The notes under the pieces are model-generated. The model had not been told where the DNA came from. It worked only from the letters and a program-made list of their open reading frames with translations, and ran no database searches. Below, one piece after another: positions 21,705 to 33,103 of a stretch of 34,872 nucleotides of DNA. A program made the position numbers and the translations under genes. Each line of letters starts with the position of its first letter. The stretch's first letter is position 1. Source of the stretch: a virus; the IMG/VR virus record IMGVR_UViG_3300046836_000226, positions 1 through 34,872 of that record. One strand, given 5' to 3'.

Positions 21705-22427
21705 TCAGTGGTTCAGCCCGGTGATGTTGCCATCGGCACGGAGCTGGCCATCGCCATTCCAGGCGCTGTCGCTCCAGTGCTGCTTGAAGCCGTGCACGGG
21801 CACGATGACCCGCTTGCCGTTGACGACCTTCACGATGTACTTGGTGAAGGGCACGGCCTGGTAGTTGTAGCCGTAGCCGGACTCGCTGACACCGCTGAAC
21901 GTGGTGCCAGCCGGGAACGCCAGCTCGGGCCAGGTGCTCGACGGGTAGGCGCTGTTGATCGCGCCGCGCAGAGCGGTGGGGACTAGCCCGTTGTGGGCCT
22001 TGGCCGAGGCGTAGAACACGCCGAACTGGCCGAAGCCGGACATGGGACCGGAGACCTGGACGGGCTTGAGAACGCGGCCCGCGTTGTGCCCGCCCTGGTT
22101 CGGGGTGAGCTGGCCGGGGAGATCCCGGAAGCTGCCCTGGTCCTGGAGCTGGGCGTTGTAGATGTACGGCGTGGTGGCCAGCGCCGGGTTGGCCGCGATC
22201 TGAGCCGGGGTGACCTTGCCCAGGTAGTTGACGGTCAGGGTGCGGGTGAAGGAGTCCTTCGCCCAGACGCCGCCGCCGCCGCCGTCATCGCGGTTGGAGA
22301 TGTGGGTCACTGCCGTGACCGGGTGGCGAACCGCCGCGCTGGCGTTCGATGCTAGCGCCGTGGCGGGGACACCGGCTGCGATGGTCGCAGCGGCTAGCCA
22401 GCCGAGGGCGCGAGTGGTCTTGCGCAT
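21705..22427 (-). CDS. Secreted hypothetical protein (240 aa)
   Basis: The start ATG at 22427 is chosen because it begins a clear signal peptide: MRKTTRALGWLAAATIAAGV, with basic residues at 2, 3 and 6, a hydrophobic core at 8-20 and possible AxA cleavage sites after residue 26 or 31. GAGGAAG lies upstream. No Cys follows the core, so it is not a lipoprotein. The mature part has a Gly-rich turn (DDGGGGGVW), TRTLTVNYLGKVTPAQI and VPFTKYIVKVVNGKRVIVPV. I do not recognise a family. It is the last gene before the convergent hairpin and has its own promoter-like element at 22480-22511. Action at the host surface is inference. Confidence 0.75.
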   Translation of the reverse strand: MRKTTRALGWLAAATIAAGVPATALASNASAAVRHPVTAVTHISNRDDGGGGGVWAKDSFTRTLTVNYLGKVTPAQIAANPALATTPYIYNAQLQDQGSFRDLPGQLTPNQGGHNAGRVLKPVQVSGPMSGFGQFGVFYASAKAHNGLVPTALRGAINSAYPSSTWPELAFPAGTTFSGVSESGYGYNYQAVPFTKYIVKVVNGKRVIVPVHGFKQHWSDSAWNGDGQLRADGNITGLNH

Positions 22428-22454: not shown

Positions 22455-22476
22455 GCGGGCTCGGTGCGAGCCCTGC
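22455..22476 (-). other. 5' leader hairpin of the secreted-protein gene
   Basis: GGGCTCG pairs with CGAGCCC around a three-base loop. An outer GC pair of bases continues the stem past one bulged base. It starts a few bases downstream of the promoter-like element at 22480-22511 and ends before the ribosome binding site, so it would form at or near the 5' end of the mRNA. Confidence 0.5.
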
Positions 22477-22479
22477 GGT

Positions 22480-22511
22480 GGTGTAAACACCGCTCGTGGC
22501 GGGCCTATTCC
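22480..22511 (-). promoter_or_regulatory. Bipartite GGAATA-N15-GTGTTTACACC element, copy 1
   Basis: On the - strand GGAATA is followed by exactly 15 bases and GTGTTTACACC. The second half is the dyad GGTGT-AA-ACACC. The spacing equals GGAAT-N18-GTT, the consensus of SigR/SigH-type ECF promoters. It lies 53 bases upstream of the secreted-protein start. Confidence 0.7.
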
Positions 22512-22520
22512 CGCCAGGTC

Positions 22521-22736
22521 TTAGTGCAGGTCCGCGTGGAAGTACCAGAAGTACCCGTAGCGGATCACGCGGACGTCCCGCATGGTCGAGCTGGTCACCC
22601 AGAGCGTGACGGCGGCGATCAGCACGGAGCTGATCAGCAGCACCGCCTGGACCGGAATCCAGAACAGGACCAGCAGCGGCAGGACCAGGGCGAACCAGGC
22701 CAGCCCGTGGGCCAGCCTGCGGTTCTCGTACCTCAT
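22521..22736 (-). CDS. Small two-helix membrane protein (71 aa)
   Basis: The ATG at 22736 overlaps the upstream stop (ATGA). Two hydrophobic segments are visible at about residues 11-28 (GLAWFALVLPLLVLFWIPV) and 30-48 (AVLLISSVLIAAVTLWV). The N-terminus is basic (RYENRR) and a C-terminal tail of about 22 residues is aromatic and basic (VIRYGYFWYFHADLH). By the positive-inside rule the N-terminus would be cytoplasmic. The size would fit a holin or an envelope-modifying early protein, but there is no endolysin nearby. It is the third gene of the unit starting at 23328. Confidence 0.65.
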   Translation of the reverse strand: MRYENRRLAHGLAWFALVLPLLVLFWIPVQAVLLISSVLIAAVTLWVTSSTMRDVRVIRYGYFWYFHADLH

Positions 22737-23047
22737 GACTGCGCCTCCGGTAGGGGCTTGAAGCCCCAGAACACGCGGTGCCTGTTCTTCAGCTCGACCG
22801 GGATGGCCGGGAGTCCGCGCGTGGTGCCGCGTCCCTTCGTCCACCGGATGGTCCGGTAGTCGATGTCGTAGACGGACATCTTCTCCAGGTTGTAGCGGGT
22901 CGGCCCGTAGAAGTTGCCGGGCTCGTACCCGTCGCCGCCCTGGCCGATTGCTGCGAAGTCCAGCACCGGGTAGGCGACCTCGCCGCCTACCTTGCTGATC
23001 ACGGTGCCGGTCTCGGCCTCTATGCCGTAGGTGATGATCTTGTTCAT
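22733..23047 (-). CDS. Hypothetical early protein (104 aa)
   Basis: ATG 23047 overlaps the stop codon of the preceding gene by one base and its own stop overlaps the next ATG. The sequence starts MNKIITYGIEAETGTVISKV and holds many aromatic residues (YEPGNFYGPTRYNLEKM), with an Arg/Lys-rich middle (RTIRWTKGRGTTRG). It is probably a small soluble alpha/beta protein. No known motif is seen. Confidence 0.65.
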   Translation of the reverse strand: MNKIITYGIEAETGTVISKVGGEVAYPVLDFAAIGQGGDGYEPGNFYGPTRYNLEKMSVYDIDYRTIRWTKGRGTTRGLPAIPVELKNRHRVFWGFKPLPEAQS

Positions 23048-23328
23048 CAGCCCGCCTGCCCTGATGCCATGAAGTACCTGGTGAGCGCTTCCGGGTCGAG
23101 CTGGAGCATGCGCTCCCCGGTGTCGCCGCTGTAGGTGTTGAGCGCCTCGTAGGCGATCATCTCGTGAAGCGGCTGGCCGGGATGCCAGGTGCCCGAGACA
23201 CTGACCTCGACGTACTGCCCGCCGTGATAGACGGCGGCGACGTCCCGGTCCCGGTGGTAGCTGTAGGCGTACCGCCCGCTGTCCGGGTCGGTGGCCCATC
23301 CGTACTCGAAATCTGAAATCTGTGGCAT
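23047..23328 (-). CDS. Hypothetical early protein (93 aa)
   Basis: The ATG at 23328 is preceded by GATGAGGAAG, a strong ribosome binding site six bases upstream, so a longer in-frame reading through the promoter region is rejected. The protein is acidic and Tyr-rich (FEYGWATDPDSGRYAYSYHR), with GQYVEVSVSGTWHPGQPLHE and YEALNTYSGDTGERMLQLDP. Function is unknown. It heads a three-gene unit (93, 104 and 71 residues) controlled by the element at 23428-23459. Confidence 0.7.
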   Translation of the reverse strand: MPQISDFEYGWATDPDSGRYAYSYHRDRDVAAVYHGGQYVEVSVSGTWHPGQPLHEMIAYEALNTYSGDTGERMLQLDPEALTRYFMASGQAG

Positions 23329-23347
23329 TGCTTCCTCATCGTCTGGG

Positions 23348-23413
23348 GCGCGGGGCCGGTCACCTGTCGTTGCGCCCAGGTCCGTGCTGGGGTCGTGATG
23401 ACCGGTCCCGCGC
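23348..23413 (-). other. Long leader hairpin upstream of the 93-aa gene
   Basis: Two 15-base arms (GCGCGGG-x-CCGGTCA and its complement) pair with a single mismatch and enclose a 36-base inner region that has its own short CCCAG/CTGGG stem. The structure starts about 15 bases after the promoter-like element and ends 20 bases before the start codon. It may protect the mRNA end or act in regulation. Confidence 0.5.
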
Positions 23414-23427
23414 TTTTGTCTTACACT

Positions 23428-23459
23428 GGTGTAAACACTCCAGCTCAGGCTTTTATTCC
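23428..23459 (-). promoter_or_regulatory. Bipartite GGAATA-N15-GTGTTTACACC element, copy 2
   Basis: The GGAATA part lies inside the last codons of the upstream 47-residue gene, and the GTGTTTACACC part lies just past its stop. The geometry is identical to the other five copies. The next gene starts 100 bases downstream. Confidence 0.7.
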
Positions 23460-23588
23460 GCCCCAGAACCAGCTCACCGGGCAACTGATCTGCTCGTACC
23501 GCGAGTCACCTGGCGACACCGGCAGTACGCTCTGCCAGTAGTACCGGCCCGCCGCCTGGCCGGTGAACCGGTACCGTGTGCGCTTCAT
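23445..23588 (-). CDS. Small hypothetical protein (47 aa)
   Basis: ATG 23588 overlaps the preceding TGA by three bases. The protein is basic and aromatic: MKRTRYRFTGQAAGRYYWQS, then a stretch ending in CPVSWFWGGIKA. It is short, but the overlap with the upstream stop and the way its end forms part of the regulatory element support a real gene. Function is unknown. Confidence 0.55.
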   Translation of the reverse strand: MKRTRYRFTGQAAGRYYWQSVLPVSPGDSRYEQISCPVSWFWGGIKA

Positions 23589-24604
23589 CGCGCCAGCTTG
23601 TACAGGATGTCCGCCGAGCGCAGCGGCAGGCCGTCCGGTCCCTTGATGTAAGGGCGGACCCAGGTCTCGGTCCTGCCGTCGCTGAACGTGCCGTCGTGCG
23701 GGGCCTTGCGGTAGTGGCCGCGCACCAGCCAGGAGCAGGTCCAGTCGATGTGCCGGGGCGTGGCGCTGGGCTTGTCGGCCGCGCTCCGTTCCGGGCGGCG
23801 CAGCGTGATCACCCGGACCAGCTTGTGCTTCAGGTTCGCGGCGCGCTTGGCTCCCTGGCGGCCGGGCAGCTCGGTGCGGCTGGCGGTGATCGCCATCCCC
23901 ATGAGTATCCACAGCATGTGGACGTGCCAGTGCTCCTTCAGGCTGGTGTATACCTGGCCGGTGATCGGGATGGTGGCCTGGCCCATCAGGTGCAGCGGAC
24001 GCGGCCGGACGTCGGGATCGTTGTTGTAGCCCCACTCGCGCAGCCGGATGGCTGGCATGGAGCCGACGAAGCTGGACTCGGGATTCCAGCCGATCCGCAC
24101 GGTCATCTCCGGGACCAGAGCCCAGCTCACCGCGTGCATCAGCAGCGGCTCCATGTCCTCGGTGTCCTCGATCGACGGGCGCGGGATGGGCTTGTCCAGC
24201 CACATGAAGCCATAGCGGGCTGGCAGGTCTTCGCGCTGGATCGCGCCGATGGTCGGGTTGGCCGCAGCCAGCGCCTCGGCCAGGTCCACCATCTCGGCGG
24301 TCACCTGGTAGGTGGTCGCGCCGAACAGGTCACTGCCGAGCGATGCCAGCCAGGGGTCCAGGTCTTTCATGGAGGTGGACGGGTGCAGGTGGCTGGCAGC
24401 CCACTGCGGCGTGTCGCCCACGTCCCGCACCGCGTAGTCCTTCAGGCCCTCGCGGAACCACGGGTCCGGGTGGGACAGGGACCGCTGGAGGTCAGCGTGC
24501 ATGTCCAGCACGTCGGTGGCGCTCAGCGTGCGCGGGCAGACCTGGCCGAAGCCCCGTGCGTCGATGTCTGCCCGCGTGACCGGCTCATAGTGCTGGCTGC
24601 TCAT
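23585..24604 (-). CDS. Actinophage conserved hypothetical protein (339 aa)
   Basis: ATG 24604 follows AAGGAG by about ten bases; the frame is open further upstream but lacks a good start there. The N-terminal 250 residues are mixed alpha/beta (LPARYGFMWLDKPIPRP, HWHVHMLWILMGMAITASR). The C-terminus carries the pattern HIDWTCSWLVRGHYRK, then TWVRPYIKGPDGLPL and ILYKLAR, which I associate with a protein seen in many actinobacterial phages and genomes. Its function is not established. It lies at the end of a ten-gene unit, directly after the HNH gene. Confidence 0.65.
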   Translation of the reverse strand: MSSQHYEPVTRADIDARGFGQVCPRTLSATDVLDMHADLQRSLSHPDPWFREGLKDYAVRDVGDTPQWAASHLHPSTSMKDLDPWLASLGSDLFGATTYQVTAEMVDLAEALAAANPTIGAIQREDLPARYGFMWLDKPIPRPSIEDTEDMEPLLMHAVSWALVPEMTVRIGWNPESSFVGSMPAIRLREWGYNNDPDVRPRPLHLMGQATIPITGQVYTSLKEHWHVHMLWILMGMAITASRTELPGRQGAKRAANLKHKLVRVITLRRPERSAADKPSATPRHIDWTCSWLVRGHYRKAPHDGTFSDGRTETWVRPYIKGPDGLPLRSADILYKLAR

Positions 24605-24945
24605 CGTCGTGGCTCCTTCTTCCTGGTCCAGCCGGTTATCCCTCTCGCTGAACCTCCTACGGTGATCGCGCGCCAGGGGCTCCATGCGGGCCTGTCGTCG
24701 GCTGGATCTTGCTGCATCATCCTCACTGCCGCGTCGAATCTGTTGTGGCACCGCCTGCACATCTGTGCATAATCAGCGGTGTCGTGGTATCTGCCCGTCA
24801 AGTTCGCCCACTCGTAGTAGCGGTGCTCACACCCCCACACACAGCTCGTTGCCTTCCCTCGCTGCCGGTAGATGCGTCCGTGCCTGGCGATATATCCAGC
24901 ACGATCTCCCCGCCAGTTGGGGTTGTTCTCACGGACGCGGTTCAC
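24601..24945 (-). CDS. HNH endonuclease-like protein (114 aa)
   Basis: The GTG start at 24945 overlaps the end of the preceding gene by 17 bases. Residues 35-71 contain Cys 35, Cys 39, a YYEWANLTGRYHDTADY segment and CRRCHNRFD (Cys 63, Cys 66, His 67, Asp 71). This is the compact HNH layout of phage homing endonucleases: a zinc site from two Cys pairs and an EWAN...DY...LCxxCHxxxD pattern. The basic N-terminus (NWRGDRAGYIARHGRIYRQR) resembles the DNA-contact part of these enzymes. It could be a mobile free-standing nuclease gene. The ribosome binding site is weak. Confidence 0.75.
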   Translation of the reverse strand: MNRVRENNPNWRGDRAGYIARHGRIYRQRGKATSCVWGCEHRYYEWANLTGRYHDTADYAQMCRRCHNRFDAAVRMMQQDPADDRPAWSPWRAITVGGSARGITGWTRKKEPRR

Positions 24946-25243
24946 GTCGGCACGTCGCTATCAAGACATATCGCCAGTTGATGTCAGTCCTGGTGTCCGG
25001 CAGCCGGTCGGGCGGGTAGGTCATCTCAAGCTGGGCGGCTGGCGAGCCGAAGCTGGCGATCTTGCACAGCCCTATGCCGGGGTGACCCAGGTCGTGGTTC
25101 TCGTAGACCGCAGCGCCGTCGCCACGGGCCAGCCAGCGCTGGATCAGCGCCCATGCCTCGTCGTGCTGGGCCTGGTCCTCGTCGTACTTGTCATCGACGT
25201 AGACCCGTAGCTGGTCCTCGGTCCATTCAGGTGTTACCGGCAT
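24929..25243 (-). CDS. Hypothetical early protein (104 aa)
   Basis: ATG 25243 follows AGGAGCACACG. The protein is acidic at the N-terminus (WTEDQLRVYVDDKYDEDQAQ), then WALIQRWLARGDGAAVYEN and a beta-like end with LCKIASFGSPAAQLEMTYPP and WRYVLIATCRREPRP. No family is recognised. Its 3' end overlaps the HNH start and its 5' end overlaps the 42-residue gene by 17 bases. Confidence 0.65.
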   Translation of the reverse strand: MPVTPEWTEDQLRVYVDDKYDEDQAQHDEAWALIQRWLARGDGAAVYENHDLGHPGIGLCKIASFGSPAAQLEMTYPPDRLPDTRTDINWRYVLIATCRREPRP

Positions 25244-25355
25244 CGTGTGCTCCTATGTGCGCCAGCTCGGTGTCGGCCAGCGACTTGTCGTGGGTCAGCT
25301 CGGCGTCTGCCAGCCGGTCCCAGTCGGTCAGGACGTCCTCGGACTCAGGGCACAT
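25227..25355 (-). CDS. Small acidic protein (42 aa)
   Basis: ATG 25355 follows GGGAG by eight bases and overlaps the preceding gene by 11 bases; its end overlaps the next by 17. The sequence MCPESEDVLTDWDRLADAEL contains an internal near-repeat, LADAELTHDKS and LADTELAHIGA. It is probably one amphipathic helix. Supported by its tiling between neighbours and its start signal, it remains a modest call. Confidence 0.45.
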   Translation of the reverse strand: MCPESEDVLTDWDRLADAELTHDKSLADTELAHIGAHDAGNT

Positions 25356-25554
25356 CGTGCATCTCCCAGGTCCGGGCGAACTCGTACATGGTGGGGAACT
25401 GCTGCTCAGCGGCCTTGTAGCGGTCCACCGAGCGGTAGTAGTCGTGCAGGAAGACGGTGACCATCTGCTCACCGCGCTTGCTCTCCACGCCAGCGAACTG
25501 GCCCTGGTCGAGTAGCGCGGTGAAGGCCAGGCTGCGGTCGATCGGGTTGCCCAT
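25345..25554 (-). CDS. Hypothetical early protein (69 aa)
   Basis: GGAGGAAG lies five bases before ATG 25554, which overlaps the preceding TGA (TGATG). A GTG 15 bases upstream was rejected because it falls on the ribosome binding site. The protein is helical: SLAFTALLDQGQFAGVESKR, then MVTVFLHDYYRSVDRYKAAE, ending MYEFARTWEMHDVP. Function is unknown. Confidence 0.65.
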   Translation of the reverse strand: MGNPIDRSLAFTALLDQGQFAGVESKRGEQMVTVFLHDYYRSVDRYKAAEQQFPTMYEFARTWEMHDVP

Positions 25555-25763
25555 CAGTACTTCCTCCACTCGATCTCGAACCCGCGATCATCCCTGGCCA
25601 TGCGGGCGGCCATCCGGCGGCTGGAGGCGAAGTAGACAGCGATCGTGCCCTTCACCGCCAGGGCGTTGGGCTGGCTCTTGGACCAGCCCAGGATCTCGAC
25701 GGTCTTGCCGTCGCCGGTCACCGGCCGGATACCGACGCTGTACCAGCGGTAAGTGGCGCTCAT
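25554..25763 (-). CDS. Hypothetical early protein (69 aa)
   Basis: ATG 25763 overlaps the upstream stop (ATGA). The protein is small and basic with a beta-like first half (ATYRWYSVGIRPVTGDGK, TVEILGWSKSQPNALAVKG) and a helical, Arg-rich second half (YFASSRRMAARMARDDRG), ending IEWRKY. The charge pattern would suit nucleic-acid or protein binding, which is inference. Confidence 0.65.
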   Translation of the reverse strand: MSATYRWYSVGIRPVTGDGKTVEILGWSKSQPNALAVKGTIAVYFASSRRMAARMARDDRGFEIEWRKY

Positions 25764-26185
25764 GGCCGGTCCTCCGGGACGTGGCTGTGCGCGTCCTCGA
25801 CGTCGCACAGCCCGCACAGGCCGAAGATCGCGCGCAGCAGCCGCAGCTCCGGGTCGGACGGGTCGGCTGGCGGGCAGCACGACGCATCGTGCTCGCCGTG
25901 GCCGTGCTCCGGGTTGGTGCAGTAGGACTTGCCGCTTGCTGATCCGGGTGGCTGCCAGGTGGCCGGGGCGGGGTCCTCCACGCCGGTCACGATGAACTGG
26001 GAGGCCCACCCGGCGGCGTCCTTGACGGGGCGGTAGCGGGCGGCCAGGAGCATCCCGGCGCGGAGTATCGCGTCATCCTCGGTCTGCGCCATCACCTTGC
26101 ACGAGCTGGTGTGCCCGTTAGTGCTGCGCTTGTAGCTGACGGTGAACTCGCGGATCTGGTGGCGCGGGTGGCCCTGGGTGCTCAT
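25760..26185 (-). CDS. Cys/His-rich hypothetical protein (141 aa)
   Basis: ATG 26185 overlaps the preceding stop. The first 70 residues look like a small alpha/beta domain (REFTVSYKRSTNGHTSSCKV, AILRAGMLLAARYRPVKD). The C-terminal part carries CTNPEHGHGEHDASCCPP and later CGLCDVEDAHSH, a run of Cys and His that may bind metal. No known family is recognised. It is the third gene of the unit that starts at 26834. Confidence 0.65.
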   Translation of the reverse strand: MSTQGHPRHQIREFTVSYKRSTNGHTSSCKVMAQTEDDAILRAGMLLAARYRPVKDAAGWASQFIVTGVEDPAPATWQPPGSASGKSYCTNPEHGHGEHDASCCPPADPSDPELRLLRAIFGLCGLCDVEDAHSHVPEDRP

Positions 26186-26424
26186 GGGAGCATCGCCTTC
26201 AGCTCGGCCTTGATCCGCGTGGCGTCCGGCCCGCGCCAGTACCTGGCGTTGGACAGGAAGTACATCACGATGTCGTCGCCGGGCTCGTTGTAGAACTTGT
26301 CCTCGACGGTGGCCAGGTGCCGCATCGCGTCGATGTAGGGCACCGCGCCGAAGTACGGCTTGCGCCAGGTCTTGGTGATCTCGTCCGCGATCTTATGCAG
26401 CGGACGGGGCTCGGTGGTGGTCAT
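26182..26424 (-). CDS. Hypothetical early protein (80 aa)
   Basis: ATG 26424 overlaps the upstream stop. A longer in-frame start is rejected because it lies in the preceding gene and lacks a ribosome binding site. The protein is mostly helical: PLHKIADEITKTWRKPYFGA, YIDAMRHLATVEDKFYNEPG and DIVMYFLSNARYWRGPDATR. The TWRKPYFGAVPYIDAM segment is a pattern I associate with small actinophage proteins of unknown function. Confidence 0.65.
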   Translation of the reverse strand: MTTTEPRPLHKIADEITKTWRKPYFGAVPYIDAMRHLATVEDKFYNEPGDDIVMYFLSNARYWRGPDATRIKAELKAMLP

Positions 26425-26834
26425 GACTTCACTTCCTCGGCCCAGATCAGGCCGCTGGCCAGGCGCGGGATGACGTAATCGTCCAGCGTCCACCCGGCGT
26501 TGTCATGGCCCTCGATGAAGACGTATTCCGCCGTCACCTCGGCCACCTTGTAGTTGGCGGGCAGGTAGTTCGCTGCGACCTCGCCGGTCGGCCCGCCGAT
26601 CTTGCTGCGGGCAATCCGTGCCCGGCGCAGCGGGACGGTGCTGAGCACCTGGTAGCTCTCGACCTCGGCCTGCGCCTCGCCCTCTTCCAGCACGCCCTCG
26701 TACAGCGCCCAGGCGGGACGGTGGTCAGCGCCGAAGCTCACCCGGTCGCCGTTCTCGGCGGTGCCGGTGAAGACGATGATCGTGCCCTCATCGCGGACAT
26801 GGATCAGGTCTTCCTTCAGTATCGTGATCTGCAT
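26421..26834 (-). CDS. Hypothetical early protein (137 aa)
   Basis: ATG 26834 follows GGAGAGACAACG. The protein starts MQITILKEDLIHVRDEGTII and has a beta-rich acidic core (VFTGTAENGDRVSFGADHRP, EVESYQVLSTVPLRRARIAR), with an end WTLDDYVIPRLASGLIWAEE. Its first codons (ATGCAGAT) match those of the vWA gene at 31866. It heads the longest unit of the region, ten genes down to 23445. Function is unknown. Confidence 0.7.
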   Translation of the reverse strand: MQITILKEDLIHVRDEGTIIVFTGTAENGDRVSFGADHRPAWALYEGVLEEGEAQAEVESYQVLSTVPLRRARIARSKIGGPTGEVAANYLPANYKVAEVTAEYVFIEGHDNAGWTLDDYVIPRLASGLIWAEEVKS

Positions 26835-26859
26835 CGTTGTCTCTCCAGGAGCCTGAAGA

Positions 26860-26880
26860 GGGGCCGGGCCTTCCGGCCCC
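26860..26880 (-). other. Leader hairpin of the 137-aa gene
   Basis: GGGGCCGG pairs with CCGGCCCC around a five-base loop. It lies between the promoter-like element and the ribosome binding site. A second palindrome, CTTGA-G-TCAAG, lies between hairpin and promoter. Both are unique to this copy of the leader. Confidence 0.5.
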
Positions 26881-26904
26881 CTTGACTCAAGCATCCCTTT
26901 CAAT

Positions 26905-26936
26905 GGTGTAAACACCGCAGGCCGGGGTGTTATTCC
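26905..26936 (-). promoter_or_regulatory. Bipartite GGAATA-N15-GTGTTTACACC element, copy 3
   Basis: GGAATA overlaps the last codon and stop (GAA TAA) of the upstream 185-residue gene. Spacing is again 15 bases, and the 12-base core TGGTGTAAACAC (+ strand) is unchanged. It would drive the ten-gene unit from 26834. Confidence 0.7.
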
Positions 26937-27487
26937 CCGGTGTACGGGATGACGGGAAGGCCGAAGCCGTGCTGCTGCTCGATGGCGCGCAGCTCGTGCT
27001 CGGGCGTGCCCAGCTCGCGGGCCTTGTCGTGCAGCTTCAGCGCGTCAGACTCTAGCTGGCGCACGCGGGCCTTGGCCTTCACGATCTCAGCGAGCGTGTC
27101 GGCGTAGTCGTGGGGAGCGTCTGCCCGCTCGCGCTCGCCGGTCAGCCGGTCGCGCTCGGCGCGGCACGGCTTCTCGTCGCGGCACACCCAGGTCGGGTAG
27201 CTGAGCTGGCTGCGGCCGGGCTGGCGCTTCAGCGTGCCGAACGGGAAGTGCCGCCCGCAGATGAAGCAGTGGGTGCGCTCGGCCGCGAGCCTGGCCGTCT
27301 TGAGATTAGCGAAGCCGCTGCGCTCCTGGGCAGCCTCGGCGTTGGCCTCGGGGTACGCGGTCAGGTTCCACTGGCGGCCCTTGGCGGCGCGGTCGTTGCG
27401 CCATACGTCGTAGACCCAGAAGCCGTGCCGGGCCACGTAGTGGCCATCGGGCTGGCGCTTCCAGGTGAAGGTTTGCGTGCTGTTCAT
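26930..27487 (-). CDS. Cys-pair hypothetical protein with coiled coil (185 aa)
   Basis: ATG 27487 is used instead of the in-frame TTG six bases upstream because GGAG is correctly spaced for the ATG. Residues 1-45 hold an aromatic beta segment (FTWKRQPDGHYVARHGFWVY). Residues 70-110 contain THCFICGRHF and WVCRDEKPC, a likely zinc site. Residues 115-165 form a charged helix (LAEIVKAKARVRQLESDALK), probably a coiled coil. A zinc-binding early protein of unknown function; DNA contact is possible. It is the second gene of a two-gene unit. Confidence 0.7.
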   Translation of the reverse strand: MNSTQTFTWKRQPDGHYVARHGFWVYDVWRNDRAAKGRQWNLTAYPEANAEAAQERSGFANLKTARLAAERTHCFICGRHFPFGTLKRQPGRSQLSYPTWVCRDEKPCRAERDRLTGERERADAPHDYADTLAEIVKAKARVRQLESDALKLHDKARELGTPEHELRAIEQQHGFGLPVIPYTGE

Positions 27488-27489
27488 CG

Positions 27490-27660
27490 TCAAGACTCCA
27501 TGATCTTCTCGGCGGTCTCCTGGTAGGAGAGGCCGGGGATGTAGAGGTCCAGCTTGATCAGGGCCTCGGTCAGGTCTTCGGCGTCGATCGTGCGCGGCGG
27601 CGTCCAGTTGGCCATCGCAGCGGCGATCTCAGCGGAGTTGGGCTTCTTCGTGTCGTTCAT
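27490..27660 (-). CDS. Small hypothetical protein, probably leaderless mRNA (56 aa)
   Basis: ATG 27660 lies two bases after the 3' A of the conserved GTGTTTACACCA. If that element is the -10 region, transcription would begin at or near this ATG. The protein is helical: MNDTKKPNSAEIAAAMANW, then IDAEDLTEALIKLDLYIPG and SYQETAEKIMES. Function is unknown. An in-frame extension upstream would read through the regulatory element and is rejected. Confidence 0.65.
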   Translation of the reverse strand: MNDTKKPNSAEIAAAMANWTPPRTIDAEDLTEALIKLDLYIPGLSYQETAEKIMES

Positions 27661-27663
27661 ACT

Positions 27664-27695
27664 GGTGTAAACACTCCAGGTCAGGTGGTTATTCC
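27664..27695 (-). promoter_or_regulatory. Bipartite GGAATA-N15-GTGTTTACACC element, copy 4 (adjacent to ATG)
   Basis: The geometry is the same as in the other copies, but the start codon of the next gene begins three bases beyond the element. GGAATA again overlaps the GAA TAA end of the upstream gene. No leader hairpin is possible here. Confidence 0.7.
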
Positions 27696-28123
27696 GTGAC
27701 AACTGGCTTGCTCGTGCGAGCCCTCACCTTGACCACTTTGCCGATCGTGGAGACCGCCTTGTCCGAAGGAGCCTCGATTTCGCGCTTGCCGTGCTCGGCG
27801 GCCTCGGCCCCGCTGGCGAACAGCGGCACGTCGGTGGTGTAGTCCACGCACGCCTGCACGTCAACGTCGGGGTCCAGCCGTGAGGCCATCCGCAGCGCCA
27901 GCGTGTCGTAGTTGCTGAGCGCCGCCCAGCCCGCGCAGATGGACTTGTCCGGGTCGTTGTGGCACAGGAACGCGCCGAGCGCCCCGGCCATCGCCTGCTC
28001 GCCCGTATCGCCGTCGTAGGCGGGCAGCTTGTCGTACTCCGACTCGGCCCACACGCCGGACGGCACGTCGAGCCGGTACGGGCAGGACGCGCAGGGGCTC
28101 TTGCGCGGCTTGAGCTTAGGCAC
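27689..28123 (-). CDS. DUF6283-family protein (144 aa)
   Basis: The GTG start at 28123 overlaps the preceding stop. The N-terminus reads KSPCASCPYRLDVPSGVW, followed by ESEYDKLPAYDGDTGEQAM, FLCHNDPDKSICAGW and later a single Cys. This Cys pattern (CxxCPYR...CHxx...CAGW) is what I know as DUF6283, frequent in actinobacterial phages, with conserved Cys suggesting a metal site. The molecular function is not known. The C-terminal 40 residues are basic and variable. Confidence 0.75.
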   Translation of the reverse strand: MPKLKPRKSPCASCPYRLDVPSGVWAESEYDKLPAYDGDTGEQAMAGALGAFLCHNDPDKSICAGWAALSNYDTLALRMASRLDPDVDVQACVDYTTDVPLFASGAEAAEHGKREIEAPSDKAVSTIGKVVKVRARTSKPVVTE

Positions 28124-28352
28124 TGTCCACCGCCTTCAGCGGCGGCGGCTTGAGGTTCAGCACGACCCGCACCTCATCGTTGTGGTCGGCCATCAGCTCG
28201 ACCAGGGCGCGCTTAGCGGTCAGCAGCGCCTCGTTGCGCTCGCGCAGGGCGTCGGGGCGGTCACGCAGCTCGTTGCCGCTCCAGACCGCGTGCATCCGCA
28301 TCGCCCTGATGACCGTGCGGTTCAGCTCACGGCGCTTGGTCGGGCTCAGCAT
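28116..28352 (-). CDS. Hypothetical early protein (78 aa)
   Basis: ATG 28352 lies inside the end of the upstream gene (26-base overlap). The protein is basic at the start (SPTKRRELNRTVIRAMRMHA) and helical (RERNEALLTAKRALVELMAD), with a short end. It may bind nucleic acid, but no motif is recognised. Its stop overlaps the DUF6283 gene start by eight bases. Confidence 0.6.
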   Translation of the reverse strand: MLSPTKRRELNRTVIRAMRMHAVWSGNELRDRPDALRERNEALLTAKRALVELMADHNDEVRVVLNLKPPPLKAVDSA

Positions 28353-28563
28353 AGGGTGTCTCCTTCAGGGTGCCGAGATCCACCAGGGCGGACAGCTCGG
28401 CTATGGTGCGGGGGTTGCGCCCGCCTGGTCCTTGGTAGTGAGGCGGGGTGTACAGCACCTGGAAGCCATGGCGGCGGACCCGGTACGCGGAGGGCTGGCC
28501 ATCGGCGTATCCGATGGCCTGCACCTCCACGCTGCCCGGCCCGTACAGGACGGGCTGGCTCAT
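28327..28563 (-). CDS. Hypothetical early protein (78 aa)
   Basis: The ATG at 28563 is adjacent to the preceding TAG. The sequence is beta-like at first (VLYGPGSVEVQAIGYADGQP, YRVRRHGFQVLYTPPHYQG) and then a short helix (TIAELSALVDLGTLK). It could be a small nucleic-acid-binding fold. No family is recognised. Confidence 0.6.
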   Translation of the reverse strand: MSQPVLYGPGSVEVQAIGYADGQPSAYRVRRHGFQVLYTPPHYQGPGGRNPRTIAELSALVDLGTLKETPYAEPDQAP

Positions 28564-29001
28564 CTAGTCCTCCAGGCCCAGGAGCTGCATCAGGCCAGCA
28601 GCGCTGGTAGCCGCTGGCTTCCGGGCTGGCTCCTTCCGCTGGTCCCACGCGCGGTTGCCCGCGTTGGTGTGGGGGTGCAGCGGTGCGTGCCAGGACCCGT
28701 CCGGCTGGCGGACCTTCAGGAACTCGCGGTTCTCGTGCATGTCGTTGTCGGCCGCGCACTTCAGCACCTCGGCCAGCAGGTCCGTCTCGTCCATGTCGCG
28801 GACGTTGACCAGCCGCTGCTGACCGTAGATGGTGATCTGCCTGCGGCAGACCCCATCAGGGTCCGGGTAGCTGGTGTCCACCGTGCGGATGATGAAGCTC
28901 AGCTCCACCAGCCCGCTGGCGGTGTAGACCTCGGCGGTGGGCTGCCAGCCCGGCTTGAAGGCCAGGCCCTCAACGAACCGCACTGCCTCGGTGACGTTCA
29001 T
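28564..29001 (-). CDS. Hypothetical early protein (145 aa)
   Basis: ATG 29001 overlaps the preceding TGA (ATGA). The protein has a beta/alpha core (AEVYTASGLVELSFIIRTVD, VCRRQITIYGQQRLVNVRDM), an acidic helix (TDLLAEVLKCAADNDMHENR), then FLKVRQPDGSWHAPLHPHTN and a basic linker, ending GLMQLLGLED. The HENREFLxV...PHTN pattern recalls proteins I have seen in mycobacterial and Streptomyces phages, without a known function. Confidence 0.65.
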   Translation of the reverse strand: MNVTEAVRFVEGLAFKPGWQPTAEVYTASGLVELSFIIRTVDTSYPDPDGVCRRQITIYGQQRLVNVRDMDETDLLAEVLKCAADNDMHENREFLKVRQPDGSWHAPLHPHTNAGNRAWDQRKEPARKPAATSAAGLMQLLGLED

Positions 29002-29216
29002 GCCGTCACCGTCCATGCCTGGCCCATGGCCAGGGCGAGCAGGTCGAGCTGGAGATCGGTGCAGCGCCAGCACAGGCGCTCGCGCGGCGTCCAGGGGATC
29101 AGCTCCCCTGCCTCTTCCCCGCACCCGGTGCACCGGCCAGCGGCCACCGTGCGCTCGCAGCTCGCGGCGTGATCTTCCACGGCGTCATACTGCGCCCTGG
29201 CTTCGGTTATCGTCAT
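28998..29216 (-). CDS. Small zinc-ribbon-like protein (72 aa)
   Basis: ATG 29216 follows GGACAACGATACAG; the ribosome binding site is weak (GCAGGA). Residues 20-52 hold CERTVAAGRCTGCG and, after about 20 residues, LCWRC, giving a four-Cys zinc ribbon. The C-terminus is a helix (DLQLDLLALAMGQAW). Such small treble-clef or ribbon proteins are common in early phage operons. It heads a five-gene unit ending at 27689. Confidence 0.65.
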   Translation of the reverse strand: MTITEARAQYDAVEDHAASCERTVAAGRCTGCGEEAGELIPWTPRERLCWRCTDLQLDLLALAMGQAWTVTA

Positions 29217-29239
29217 CTGTATCGTTGTCCTGCCGTTCG

Positions 29240-29258
29240 GGGCCTCCTTGCGAGGCCC
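29240..29258 (-). other. Leader hairpin of the 72-aa gene
   Basis: GGGCCTC pairs with GAGGCCC around a five-base loop. It starts six bases after the conserved ACACCA of the promoter-like element, so it would be at the 5' end of the transcript. Confidence 0.5.
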
Positions 29259-29264
29259 TACGTT

Positions 29265-29296
29265 GGTGTAAACACTCCAGGTCCGGGGTCTATTCC
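29265..29296 (-). promoter_or_regulatory. Bipartite GGAATA-N15-GTGTTTACACC element, copy 5
   Basis: GGAATA overlaps the GAA TAG end of the HTH-like gene. Spacing is 15 bases. After ACACCA come ACG and TAGGGC, a continuation shared with copy 6. Confidence 0.7.
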
Positions 29297-29595
29297 CGGC
29301 TACCTAGCTGTCGCCAGCCGTTACCGTAGCGGGCTGGCACCCCGTGCGTGGTCCAGGTCAGCACCTGGCTGTAGTCAAAGTGGCGGCTCGGCCGGTTGAG
29401 CGGCGCGTCAGGTACCCCGCGCACCTCGCGCGGGAACACCTGCCCGGCCGCGTTCTTCGTCTCCCGTTTCCACCACTCATACACCCGCTGGCGGGTGATC
29501 GTCTCCCCGTAATGCGCGCTGAGCAGCTCAGCCAGCTTGGTAAACGAGACAGCCGAGCGCCACGCCGCTTCGGGCTTGACCCCGGCCTCTTGCAT
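29290..29595 (-). CDS. HTH-like DNA-binding protein (101 aa)
   Basis: ATG 29595 follows TAGGAGGCGGTT, a strong ribosome binding site. Residues 17-48 (FTKLAELLSAHYGETITRQR, then VYEWWKRE) have the shape of a helix-turn-helix: a helix, a turn with an inserted GETIT, and a second helix with VYEWW. This is common in small regulators or excisionase-like proteins of actinophages. The C-terminal half is basic with RHFDYSQVLTWTTHG, a likely contact or dimer segment. It could regulate the surrounding elements, which is inference. It is a single-gene unit between two hairpin leaders. Confidence 0.65.
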   Translation of the reverse strand: MQEAGVKPEAAWRSAVSFTKLAELLSAHYGETITRQRVYEWWKRETKNAAGQVFPREVRGVPDAPLNRPSRHFDYSQVLTWTTHGVPARYGNGWRQLGSRE

Positions 29596-29616
29596 AACCG
29601 CCTCCTAACGGCCCGA

Positions 29617-29642
29617 GGGCCAGGCGGCGTACCGCCTGGCCC
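29617..29642 (-). other. Strong 11-bp hairpin between DUF932 and HTH genes
   Basis: GGGCCAGGCGG pairs perfectly with CCGCCTGGCCC around the tetraloop CGTA. It follows the DUF932 stop by 23 bases and precedes the HTH ribosome binding site by about 8 bases. It could be a terminator for the first gene or, by analogy with the other leaders, a 5' hairpin for the second. Confidence 0.6.
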
Positions 29643-29644
29643 CC

Positions 29645-29652
29645 TGGTGTAA
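29645..29652 (-). promoter_or_regulatory. Degenerate half copy of the repeated element (TTACACCA)
   Basis: On the - strand TTACACCA is present, followed within four bases by the hairpin at 29617-29642, as in the full copies. The GGAATA part is absent at the expected distance. It may be a remnant, or an operator half without promoter function. Confidence 0.4.
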
Positions 29653-29665
29653 TCAGCCTACTAGA

Positions 29666-30688
29666 TCAGGCTGCGAGCACCAGGTTGAGCTGGTCGAGGG
29701 TGGCAGCGTCCAGCTTCTCGAACTCGCCGGTCACCATCTTGGTCATGTTCCGCTCGGCGCGGCCTGCGCCCTTCACGGTCTGGATGTGGTGCGCGTGGGT
29801 GTTGACTGCCTGGAGTACTCCGAACGCGGTGTTGGCCCACGGGGCTACCCGCATGTCGTTGTCCCACAGGTTGGTCAGCTCATCGCGCCGGTTGTCCCAG
29901 TTGGTCTGCCCACGGCCCTTGTCCTCCGGGCGCTCGCCCAGGTGGGCCTTCAGGAACTCGTCCCACTGGGTGTCGCTGACGGCGGTCGAGGTGAGCTTGT
30001 CCACCTCGGCGGCGAAGTCGTCGCCCGCCTGGTAGATGATGTCCAGCTTGGCGCGGACGTCACCGATGTTGGCGTTGGAGTACTTGCTGTGCCGGGTCTT
30101 GACCTTCAGGGCGTTGCCCTCGGCCAGGCCCGCAGCCAGGGTGTTGTCACACACCACGAGCTGGATACCGCGCTGGTGCGTGGTGCTCAGCGATCCGTCG
30201 AGCGAGTCGGCGGCCAGGAAGAACGGCCGGTACTTGACGCCCTGCGGCGTGTCCAGCGTCTCGGGCAGCTCGAACTGCACCCAGGCGAGCTTGCCGCCCT
30301 TCAGCAGTCCGGCTGAGCTTGCGCCGACGTCGGAGTCCATGACGTCCTGGCTGAGCTTGACCAGCCACTCGCGGTAGCTGTGCGGCGTGAAGCCATCGGT
30401 GAACTCACCGAGGCGGAAGCCGGTGTGCGGGTGGATCAGGGTGATCCGGTCCTGCCAGGTGGTCTTCCGTGTCTTGCCATCGGCGTCGGTCCAGGTGGAC
30501 TCGGACGTGCCGATCGCGGGCTCCCAGTCGAACAGGCGGCGGTTGATGTCGGCCACCGGGATCTCGCCGGGATAGTGGTTGGGCTCTGCGCCCTGCGCGC
30601 TCTCGCGGTAGTGCCATGCCTTGTCGCGCTTGTCGGTGAAGCCGATCAGGGTGTACCTGTTCAGCCACTCGCTGGTTTCCTGTGACAT
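29666..30688 (-). CDS. DUF932 / phage-plasmid-like protein (340 aa)
   Basis: ATG 30688 follows GATGAGGAA. The middle contains GVKYRPFFLAADSLDGSLST, then QLVVCDNTLAAGL, the RP..L....DG....VVCxNTL signature of the DUF932 family (TIGR03299, phage/plasmid-like protein). The N-terminal half has EIPVADINRRLFDWEPA and ITLIHPHTGFRLGEF, also typical of the family. The C-terminal helical part (NTAFGVLQAVNTHAHHIQTV, AERNMTKMVTGEFEKLD) fits too. About 340 residues is normal. Members occur in phages and plasmids near recombination genes; their precise role is unknown. The element at 30750-30781 lies upstream. Confidence 0.85.
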   Translation of the reverse strand: MSQETSEWLNRYTLIGFTDKRDKAWHYRESAQGAEPNHYPGEIPVADINRRLFDWEPAIGTSESTWTDADGKTRKTTWQDRITLIHPHTGFRLGEFTDGFTPHSYREWLVKLSQDVMDSDVGASSAGLLKGGKLAWVQFELPETLDTPQGVKYRPFFLAADSLDGSLSTTHQRGIQLVVCDNTLAAGLAEGNALKVKTRHSKYSNANIGDVRAKLDIIYQAGDDFAAEVDKLTSTAVSDTQWDEFLKAHLGERPEDKGRGQTNWDNRRDELTNLWDNDMRVAPWANTAFGVLQAVNTHAHHIQTVKGAGRAERNMTKMVTGEFEKLDAATLDQLNLVLAA

Positions 30689-30706
30689 TTCCTCATCGTC
30701 TCTGTC

Positions 30707-30718
30707 GGGTCTGACATT
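30707..30718 (-). repeat. 12-base element AATGTCAGACCC, copy 1
   Basis: The same 12 bases recur at 33964-33975, at the end of the nuclease gene. Here the element lies in the leader of the DUF932 gene. It could be an operator or chance; two copies in about 3.3 kb. Confidence 0.3.
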
Positions 30719-30725
30719 TTGATCC

Positions 30726-30743
30726 GGGCTGCTGTTGCGGCCC
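30726..30743 (-). other. Leader hairpin (imperfect) of the DUF932 gene
   Basis: GGGCCGC faces GCAGCCC with one C/A mismatch on the transcribed strand and a four-base loop. The position relative to the promoter-like element equals that at 29240-29258. Confidence 0.4.
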
Positions 30744-30749
30744 TACGAT

Positions 30750-30781
30750 GGTGTAAACACCCCAGCCCACGGATCTATTCC
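30750..30781 (-). promoter_or_regulatory. Bipartite GGAATA-N15-GTGTTTACACC element, copy 6
   Basis: This is the only copy whose GGAATA lies fully outside a gene end, which shows that the motif is conserved independently of coding. Spacing is 15 bases, and the following TCG-TAGGGC matches copy 5. It lies upstream of the DUF932 gene. Confidence 0.75.
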
Positions 30782-31074
30782 AGACATGCCGGTGCCCGGC
30801 CCCCGATTGATCCCGTGAATCTCGCAGGGGCCGGGCAGCGCCAGCCGTTACGGCCGACGCCCCCGCAGGTTGTGCCTAGTCGGGGACCAGCACCCCCTGA
30901 TTACATCGGGGCCGGTATCCCTCGCGCATTCAGAGAGCCTGCGGGGCAGCTAAGTGACCGGCTGGCGACCGGGTGACAACCGCTAGCTGGTAGTGCGTGT
31001 GCGGTCCCGTGGAGCAACCGTTCGGCTCTATCAAGCGGTATGTTTCAGTCAGCCTCGCTACAGCCGGTCACGTT
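30782..31074. other. Non-coding gap of about 290 bases with inverted repeats
   Basis: No reading frame with a start signal fills this gap. An 11-bp perfect inverted repeat (TGCCCGGCCCC at 30793-30803 and its complement at 30827-30837, 23-base loop) lies 12 bases upstream of promoter-like copy 6 and may terminate the upstream transcript. A second short palindrome (GCCGT-T-ACGGC) is at 30844-30854. The rest is GC-rich with no tRNA pattern. It could be a terminator region, an RNA gene or a replication site. Confidence 0.45.
30793..30837 (-). terminator. Possible terminator before the DUF932 promoter
   Basis: The 11-bp perfect stem with its 23-base loop stands between the end of the vWA gene (31075) and the promoter-like element at 30750-30781. 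No T run follows. The loop is long for a typical terminator. Confidence 0.4.
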
Positions 31075-31906: not shown

Positions 31907-33103
31907 CTACTGCTGCGGCTGGCCGCCCGCCCAGCCCGGAGCCTGCGGCGGACCCTGCTCGCCGCCCTGCTGCGGCTGCTGGCCCTGCGGAGCGTAGCCC
32001 TGCTGCTGGCCGGGCATGCCGTTCGGGTTTGCCCACGGCTGCTGCTGCGGTGGCTGCTGCTGGCCCATCTGCTGAGCGGCCTGCTGCTCGTGCTGCGGGT
32101 TGACGCCGGGCTGCCACGCCTGGCCGCCCTGGGTGAACTGCTGCGCACCCGGTGCGCCGGGGTTCGGCTGCTGGGCGTACGGCGGGACGTTCGGGTCATA
32201 ACCCTGCGGCGGCTGCTGGTAGCCAGCAGGCGGTCCCTGCTGCTGCTGCTGCTGCTGACCGTAGCCGGGCGGCGGACCCTGCTGGGGCTGGCCCTGGTAA
32301 CCGGGCGGCGGGCCTTGCTGCTGCTGCTGCCCGAAGCCCTGGCCGTAGCCCTGGCCTTCGAACTGCGGCTGCTGCTGCTGCGGCTGCCACGGCTGCGGGG
32401 CACCGCCGGGCTGCGGGGCCTGCTGCGGCGGGGCCTGCCACTGCTGGCCCTGCGGCGGGGCGAAGCCCTGCGGCTGCTGCTGCTGGGCGATCTGCGGCAT
32501 CTGGGTCGGGGCTCCGGGCGGCGGCGGCTGGATGTCGCGCACCTTGTTCCGGGTGACGCCCTCGTACTCGTCGTGAATGAGCTGGAGCAGGACCGGGTGG
32601 CCGACCATGGCCTGGCCCACCTGCTGCTCGTTCCAGCCGAGCTGCCACCATCCCTGCTGGCCGTACGGCGGCGGCACCGGGATGCCCATCGCCGCGAGCT
32701 GCCGGAACATCCGGCCCATGCCCTCGGGGTTGTCCTCGCCCTTGTTGGTCTTCGGGCTGACCGCCATGGTCATGACCTGCTTCATGCCAGGCCGGGGACC
32801 GCTGGTCAGGATGAACGTGATCGTCCAGGCCCCCTTGCTGCCGTCCTTGGTCCGGTCCCAGTCCGACGCCTTGACGATCGCGGTGTACAGACCGGCATCA
32901 ACGAGCTGGCCAACGGTGTGGTCGGCCTGGCCGTACAGCGTGTTCCAGTCGTAGCCGCCAGCGCTGCCGCCCATCGGCTGGCCGCCCTGGAACGGCGTGA
33001 AGCCGCCTTGCTGCTGAGCGTACGGGTCGCCCTGGGGTGGCTGCTGCCAGCCGCCCTGACCCGGCGGCGGTCCCTGCTGAGGCGGTCCTTGCGGATATCC
33101 CAT
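31907..33103 (-). CDS. Probable ssDNA-binding protein with Gln/Pro/Gly-rich tails (398 aa)
   Basis: ATG 33103 follows AGGAAGG. Residues 1-50 are Gly/Pro/Gln-rich. Residues 51-195 form a domain with DHTVGQLVDAGLYTAIVKAS, GAWTITFILTSGPRPG and GRMFRQLAAMGI, the layout of DUF669-type or other OB-like proteins encoded beside Sak4 recombinases. The remaining 200 residues are a disordered tail, Gln-rich with GPPPGY and PPQ repeats and a run of seven Gln. Actinobacterial SSB proteins also carry long Gly/Pro/Gln tails. Binding to ssDNA is inferred from position and pattern. Confidence 0.6.
   Translation of the reverse strand: MGYPQGPPQQGPPPGQGGWQQPPQGDPYAQQQGGFTPFQGGQPMGGSAGGYDWNTLYGQADHTVGQLVDAGLYTAIVKASDWDRTKDGSKGAWTITFILTSGPRPGMKQVMTMAVSPKTNKGEDNPEGMGRMFRQLAAMGIPVPPPYGQQGWWQLGWNEQQVGQAMVGHPVLLQLIHDEYEGVTRNKVRDIQPPPPGAPTQMPQIAQQQQPQGFAPPQGQQWQAPPQQAPQPGGAPQPWQPQQQQPQFEGQGYGQGFGQQQQQGPPPGYQGQPQQGPPPGYGQQQQQQQGPPAGYQQPPQGYDPNVPPYAQQPNPGAPGAQQFTQGGQAWQPGVNPQHEQQAAQQMGQQQPPQQQPWANPNGMPGQQQGYAPQGQQPQQGGEQGPPQAPGWAGGQPQQ
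32237..32257 (-). repeat. CAG triplet run (seven units)
   Basis: Seven consecutive CAG codons on the - strand encode a Gln run. Shorter CAG runs occur on both sides (about 32310-32330, 32370-32382, 32478-32490). Such tracts may change length by slippage. Confidence 0.8.

Follow-up and report, generated by a model that had tools for sequence, protein, structure and literature searches.

Candidate promoters of the SigR/SigH type along a non-structural gene block in uncultured, putative actinobacteriophages

Phages usually begin with a housekeeping sigma factor and then bring in or modify factors of their own. The virus record IMGVR_UViG_3300046836_000226 of IMG/VR, analyzed here over a stretch of 34,872 nt (the window), raises the question of whether a phage may depend on another sigma factor, since a bipartite element, GGAATA-N15-GTGTTTACACCA, is repeated along its block of small non-structural genes. 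A preliminary description made from the sequence alone had compared this element to promoters of the thiol-stress extracytoplasmic function (ECF) sigma factors. According to our analysis, the elements are probably the core promoters of one actinobacteriophage regulon, from which the host RNA polymerase would transcribe with an ECF sigma factor of the SigR/SigH type. The assignment to the ECF promoter class is well supported by the comparison with related phages, while we infer the promoter activity of the elements and the host SigR/SigH type of the sigma factor.

An exact search of the window returned exactly six matches to the element, all on the minus strand and without mismatches. Allowing up to three mismatches added none (the mean in shuffled sequences was 0.01), and the 12-mer GTGTTTACACCA alone, at up to two mismatches, had a single further match, at 29645 with two mismatches. 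The number of copies, their strand and the fixed 15-base spacer of varying sequence were therefore as first described; the ends given there for the copies were right, but the starts were one base too high, the true starts being 22479, 23427, 26904, 27663, 29264 and 30749. Since the boxes are invariant and the spacers vary, the six copies did not arise by recent duplication of one longer stretch. Each copy lies 3–99 bases upstream of a same-strand gene in the gene calls made in this analysis, and several overlap the end of the preceding gene, so that a new transcription unit probably begins at each of them within the one-directional block. The earlier statement that the element always precedes a transcription-unit start thus holds for the position of the genes, while the transcription-unit start itself we can only infer.

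The window is a fragment of a circular phage of ~81.7 kb, represented by G015, an IMG/VR record of 81,691 bases that is 97–99% identical to the window and was taken as a complete circularized genome on account of its 127-bp terminal repeat. A motif search over the whole phage genome, proposed in the preliminary description, gave the same six copies in G015 and a diverged seventh at 50813, where the rightward non-structural arm starts. Two more distant relatives, G023 (80.6 kb) and G016 (83.8 kb), have copies of their own. The arm that runs in the direction of the elements also encodes a PD-(D/E)XK nuclease and an AAA ATPase, to which G015 adds a DNA polymerase A; the structural genes are oppositely oriented and are without clear copies of the element.

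The relatives were found by means of the large terminase, and 16 contigs, of which the window is one, were read over their full length. Matches to GGAAY-Nk-GTT (k = 12–25) were counted only where the site was mostly non-coding and a same-strand gene followed downstream. At k = 18 there were 41 matches, or 36 without those common to the window and G015; the other spacings gave 1, 2, 1, 1, 3 and 2 matches at k = 12–17, 6 at k = 19, and 0–3 at k = 20–25. The longer form GGAAY-N18-GTTNAYA, expected 0–0.03 times per genome, was present in seven copies each in G015 and G023, six in G000, five in G028, three each in G016, G027 and G037, two each in G033 and G035, and one in G032, and was absent from G034, G036, G031, G030, G038 and G029. 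The bases after GTT depend on the clade, with forms that include TTTACACCA, TTGATAGAAGT and TTGACAA: TTTACACCA occurs around the window, GTTGATAGAAGT in G028, G037 and a further contig, which has four copies of the GTGTTGATAGAAGT form, GTTGACAA in G027, GTTATAC or GTTAGAC in G032, and GTTTACA in G033 and G035. Because these bases differ by clade, GGAAY, the 18-base distance and GTT are, in the sequences compared, the part kept between phage clades. The initial comparison with the SigR promoter (GGAAT-N18-GTT, near that of SigH) was in this way tested in the relatives, and it held.

As far as tested, this promoter class appears to be restricted to the uncultured lineage. In 22 cultured actinophages (10 + 12 whole genomes) there were five single matches only, as against 33 matches to the same pattern in 15 relatives; the reversed control gave none. 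Nothing similar was found upstream of the DUF932 genes of the phages Trogglehumper, Madraxi and Guey18, and the single matches that the long pattern had in other IMG/VR records are probably due to chance.

The published consensus of SigR is GGAAT-N18-GTT (PMC2375139, PMC9205884), and that of SigH of Corynebacterium glutamicum is gGGAAta ... t/cGTTgaa (PMC10012870). The consensus of the 36 non-redundant phage sites reads GGAA(T31/C5)(A24/G10)-N16-(T29/C6)-GTT-(T16/G12)-A26-(C23/T7)-A27. These sites were chosen by GGAAY and GTT, so that the t/c before GTT lies outside the selection; GGAAT itself was found in 6/6 sites in the window and, among the GGAAY-selected sites, in 31/36, against 5/36 with GGAAC. 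The positions that were not searched for and that agree with SigR/SigH (the A that follows GGAAT, the t/c that precedes GTT and the A at the second base past GTT) are independent support for the assignment. The phage elements are like the promoters of SigR (Streptomyces) and SigH (Corynebacterium, Mycobacterium) in their −35 GGAAT(A), the 18-base spacer, the −10 (t/c)GTT followed by g/t-A, and a start point, here predicted, about ten bases after GTT. They differ in that they precede non-structural phage genes and in the near-invariance of the bases after GTT in each clade. Promoters of the SigR/SigH class tolerate GGAAN at the −35 position and spacers of 17–19 bases.

The six candidate promoters, the genes that follow them and an example of a leader structure are as follows.
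30749..30781, minus strand: candidate ECF-type promoter 1 (GGAATA at 30776-30781; GTT at 30756-30758; predicted +1 G at 30746)
29666..30688, minus strand: gene after promoter 1, encoding a DUF932-domain protein of 340 amino acids (PF06067, 6e-34)
29264..29296, minus strand: candidate ECF-type promoter 2 (GTT at 29271-29273; predicted +1 G at 29261), which overlaps the preceding gene at its end
29240..29258, minus strand: GC-rich stem-loop at the 5′ end of the predicted leader (GGGCCTCGCAAGGAGGCCC), given as an example
28998..29216, minus strand: first gene downstream of promoter 2, with the gene 28564-29016 next to it
27663..27695, minus strand: candidate ECF-type promoter 3 (GTT at 27670-27672; predicted +1 A at 27660)
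27490..27660, minus strand: promoter 3 gene of 56 amino acids with a predicted leaderless mRNA, its ATG coinciding with the predicted +1
26904..26936, minus strand: candidate ECF-type promoter 4 (GTT at 26911-26913; predicted +1 G at 26901)
26421..26834, minus strand: first gene downstream of promoter 4; small genes continue from there to 23585
23427..23459, minus strand: candidate ECF-type promoter 5 (GTT at 23434-23436; predicted +1 G at 23424)
23047..23328, minus strand: first gene downstream of promoter 5; the genes 22733-23047 and 22521-22736 come next
22479..22511, minus strand: candidate ECF-type promoter 6 (GTT at 22486-22488; predicted +1 G at 22476)
21705..22427, minus strand: gene after promoter 6 (ATG at 22427), encoding a protein of 240 amino acids with an N-terminal signal peptide (predicted secreted)

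Orthologues of promoter 1 are present in G015, G023 and G016. The 240-amino-acid protein after promoter 6 had no Pfam or PHROG match; in the relative G023, a predicted leaderless lipoprotein is encoded nearby under the same promoter type.

Under the proposed mechanism, GGAATA would serve as the −35 element and the GTT within GTGTTTACACCA as the −10 element, and RNA would start on a purine ten bases past GTT. With the predicted +1 set at the tenth base after GTT, a purine stands there at 33/38 sites. Two start codons fall exactly on the predicted +1, namely the ATG at 27660 in the window and the GTG at 77885 in G023, which opens the gene of the predicted lipoprotein; leaderless mRNAs are common in actinobacteria. 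The preliminary description had placed the expected 5′ ends 6–10 bases downstream of GTT, and these leaderless start codons put the predicted +1 ten bases downstream, in agreement with that range. A sigma-70 reading with TTTACA/TTGACA as the −35 element was rejected, because a TANNNT at the sigma-70 distance (16–18 bases) from the TTGACA-like stretch was found at 0/38 sites, and a transcript with a leaderless start would offer no space for one. The elements would thus resemble the sigma-70-type early promoters of phages in that the host polymerase would start phage genes, but they have no TANNNT −10 at the right spacing. Stems similar to that at 29240..29258, of different sequence, stand downstream of promoters 1 and 6. 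A leader stem of at least 5 bp is found at 17/38 sites, in comparison to 3.5 in shuffled sequences; as such stems occur likewise in 28% of other upstream stretches, the leader stem-loop is a side feature only.

The gene content points to an actinobacterial host, because there are an Lsr2-like gene and an Rpf-type transglycosylase domain (PF06737), and the nearest DUF932 relatives are found in phages of Rhodococcus, Gordonia, Microbacterium and Mycobacterium. The probable Lsr2-like (xenogeneic silencer-like) gene, at 59196-59660 in G015, was read from the sequence after matches to the Lsr2 family in a batch scan. The SigR-RsrA system is found throughout the actinomycetes (PMC5472188).

A phage-encoded sigma factor was sought with the profiles TIGR02937, Sigma70_r4_2 and Sigma70_r2, and nothing above the cut-off was detected in the phages searched. 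Sigma70_r2 had no match even at E ≤ 10, and the matches to Sigma70_r4 and TIGR02937 were short, sub-cut-off helix-turn-helix (HTH) matches, in non-sigma proteins wherever the proteins were read. Nor did a sigma factor come up when 58 further proteins, from the window and G015, were scanned against Pfam and PHROG. The absence of a sigma gene from the window, claimed at the outset, accordingly extends to the complete relative G015, in which none was detected. The sigma-like match at 51737-51985 in G015 was rejected as an HTH within a 330-amino-acid protein with better ArsR/HTH matches, as were short sub-cut-off HTH matches in G027, G028, G031, G036 and G037; the proteins of G027, G028 and G031 were read and are not sigma factors. 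The cluster of 150-amino-acid proteins to which the window gene 28564-29016 belongs is present in 7/7 large promoter-bearing genomes and 0/6 without promoters, and is the sole protein cluster with that distribution, although it is absent from the shorter promoter-bearing contigs G033 and G035. As a promoter-linked sigma factor it was rejected, since it has no sigma resemblance.

Since a complete genome without a recognizable sigma gene has promoters equal to a host-sigma consensus, a host SigR/SigH-type factor is the simplest reading. Some observations weigh against it. Within a clade the nine bases after GTT are nearly invariant, which is beyond the known need of SigR/SigH and may be a sign that another factor reads the promoters, alone or as well. 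A search of prokaryote genomes with the terminase gave only two distant matches in metagenome-assembled genomes (one of Chloroflexi, one alphaproteobacterial), which are not informative about the host. Finally, a very divergent phage sigma factor could escape searches with hidden Markov models: gp47 of phage 7-11 is an ECF-like sigma with ~15% identity to phi32 gp36 (PMC8948821), so phage sigmas can drift far. Such a diverged factor of the phage's own, as in the phiEco32-like phages, would account for the clade-specific invariant bases past GTT; many of the phage genes are of unknown function, and phage 7-11 provides the precedent, with bipartite promoters of the form GTAAtg-16-aCTA at its late genes (PMC8948821). 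Both systems join a phage gene set to bipartite ECF-style promoters, but phage 7-11 encodes its sigma, whereas in the present case no sigma gene was detected, and the promoters precede non-structural genes and have the specificity of a host stress sigma. The profile searches gave no support to a phage factor of the same specificity, which the preliminary description had offered as an alternative, the sole promoter-exclusive protein is unlike a sigma factor, and an independent phage sigma would not be required to share the GGAAY-N18-GTT specificity of a host sigma; we consider this alternative unlikely. A similarly low likelihood, if anything a shade lower, is given to reading by other host ECF sigma factors of overlapping specificity, for example of the SigE type (GGAAC-N17-18-cGTT), or by several. 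The regulons of SigE and SigH have members in common, since both factors recognize GGAAC combined with cGTT (PMC10012870); in the phages, GGAAC occurs at 5/36 and cGTT at 6/36 sites. However, GGAAT predominates, and the sigma-E of C. glutamicum requires GGAAC (PMC10012870), so that the GGAAT sites of the window would be SigH-only there.

It is also conceivable, but improbable, that GTGTTTACACCA, as the near-palindrome GGTGT-TT-ACACC, is an operator at which a DNA-binding protein of the phage acts on top of an ECF promoter, with dual control. The 12 invariant bases would suit such a role, as would the variant GGTGTTGACACC, a palindromic one, at the promoter that opens the arm in G015 (50813), its near-equivalent in G023 (56619), and the few one-mismatch copies of the 12-mer without a properly placed GGAAY (four, in three relatives: G015 58725, G023 41934 and 59700, G016 1233), which also count against the host SigR/SigH reading. 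A candidate protein is encoded beside the promoters, at 29290-29595 on the minus strand: it has 101 amino acids and belongs to an excisionase/MerR-like HTH family that stands beside promoters in most relatives, but the family also occurs in two promoter-less genomes. Moreover, the window copies within one mismatch all carry GGAATA, and the corresponding bases in other clades (GTTGATAGAAGT) are non-palindromic while the promoter core is kept, the near-palindrome being found in one clade only. That the element is no promoter at all, but a repeat of the packaging, recombination or terminator type, is very improbable. Phages often carry other kinds of fixed repeated elements, and actinophages have repeated regulatory elements, such as the stoperators and start-associated sequences of mycobacteriophages, that are short, invariant, of one direction and near gene starts. 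The elements described here differ from these in being bipartite, in their exact promoter spacing and in the leaderless start codons at +1; their constant direction just upstream of genes and the 18-base spacing kept between divergent phages also argue against a non-promoter role.

Several neighboring features were recorded. The non-coding stretch directly upstream of promoter 1 (30782-31074, minus strand, in the window; 65345-65649 in G015; 71281-71443 in G023) folds at −152.6 kcal/mol (z −5.1 vs. shuffles) and has CCCCGCAGGCTCTCTGAATGCGCG...GCACAACCTGCGGGG in common with G023, and other relatives have strong hairpins there. It had no Rfam family match and its exact motif was found in only two IMG/VR contigs; it may be a structured RNA or an array of terminators that lack the U tract. 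The divergent region that separates the leftward arm from the rightward one (50760-50918 in G015; ~56619-56651 in G023) has the promoter variant GGAATG-N15-GTGTTGACACC(G/A) and the GGTGTTGACACC near-palindrome, which GTAAACAC adjoins in G015, and is a candidate switch or operator region. Within the large structural genes 12940-15873 and 15873-17672, tandem-like coding repeats extend over 13735-16050 with a periodicity of ~54 bases (12 copies of 68 nt at ≥60%). The gene at 31907-33103 on the minus strand encodes a 398-amino-acid protein with an SSB-like start and a very long Q/P/G-rich tail, without a Pfam match.

Overall, if host SigR/SigH-type factors read these promoters, the elements would re-initiate transcription along the one-directional block of small non-structural genes, the DUF932 gene first, and phage expression would draw on, and rise with, the disulfide-stress response of the host. 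Coupling of the phage genes to thiol stress is likely but unproven. In our searches of the open-access literature, no report was found in which a host ECF stress sigma controls phage genes; the promoter type is already known, and what appears to be new is the variant in which it serves a phage regulon while no phage sigma can be detected. Our analysis suggests that a viral gene block is switched on by the stress-response machinery of the host. More tentatively, a lineage of soil actinophages may have wired its non-structural block to the SigR/SigH-RsrA system of the host, so that the success or timing of infection would answer to oxidative or antibiotic stress, and possibly infection itself frees SigR from its anti-sigma factor. 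A promoter class with the specificity of a host stress sigma, conserved between divergent phages, would tie the development of these phages to the redox state of the cell and would account for the failure of standard promoter scans here.

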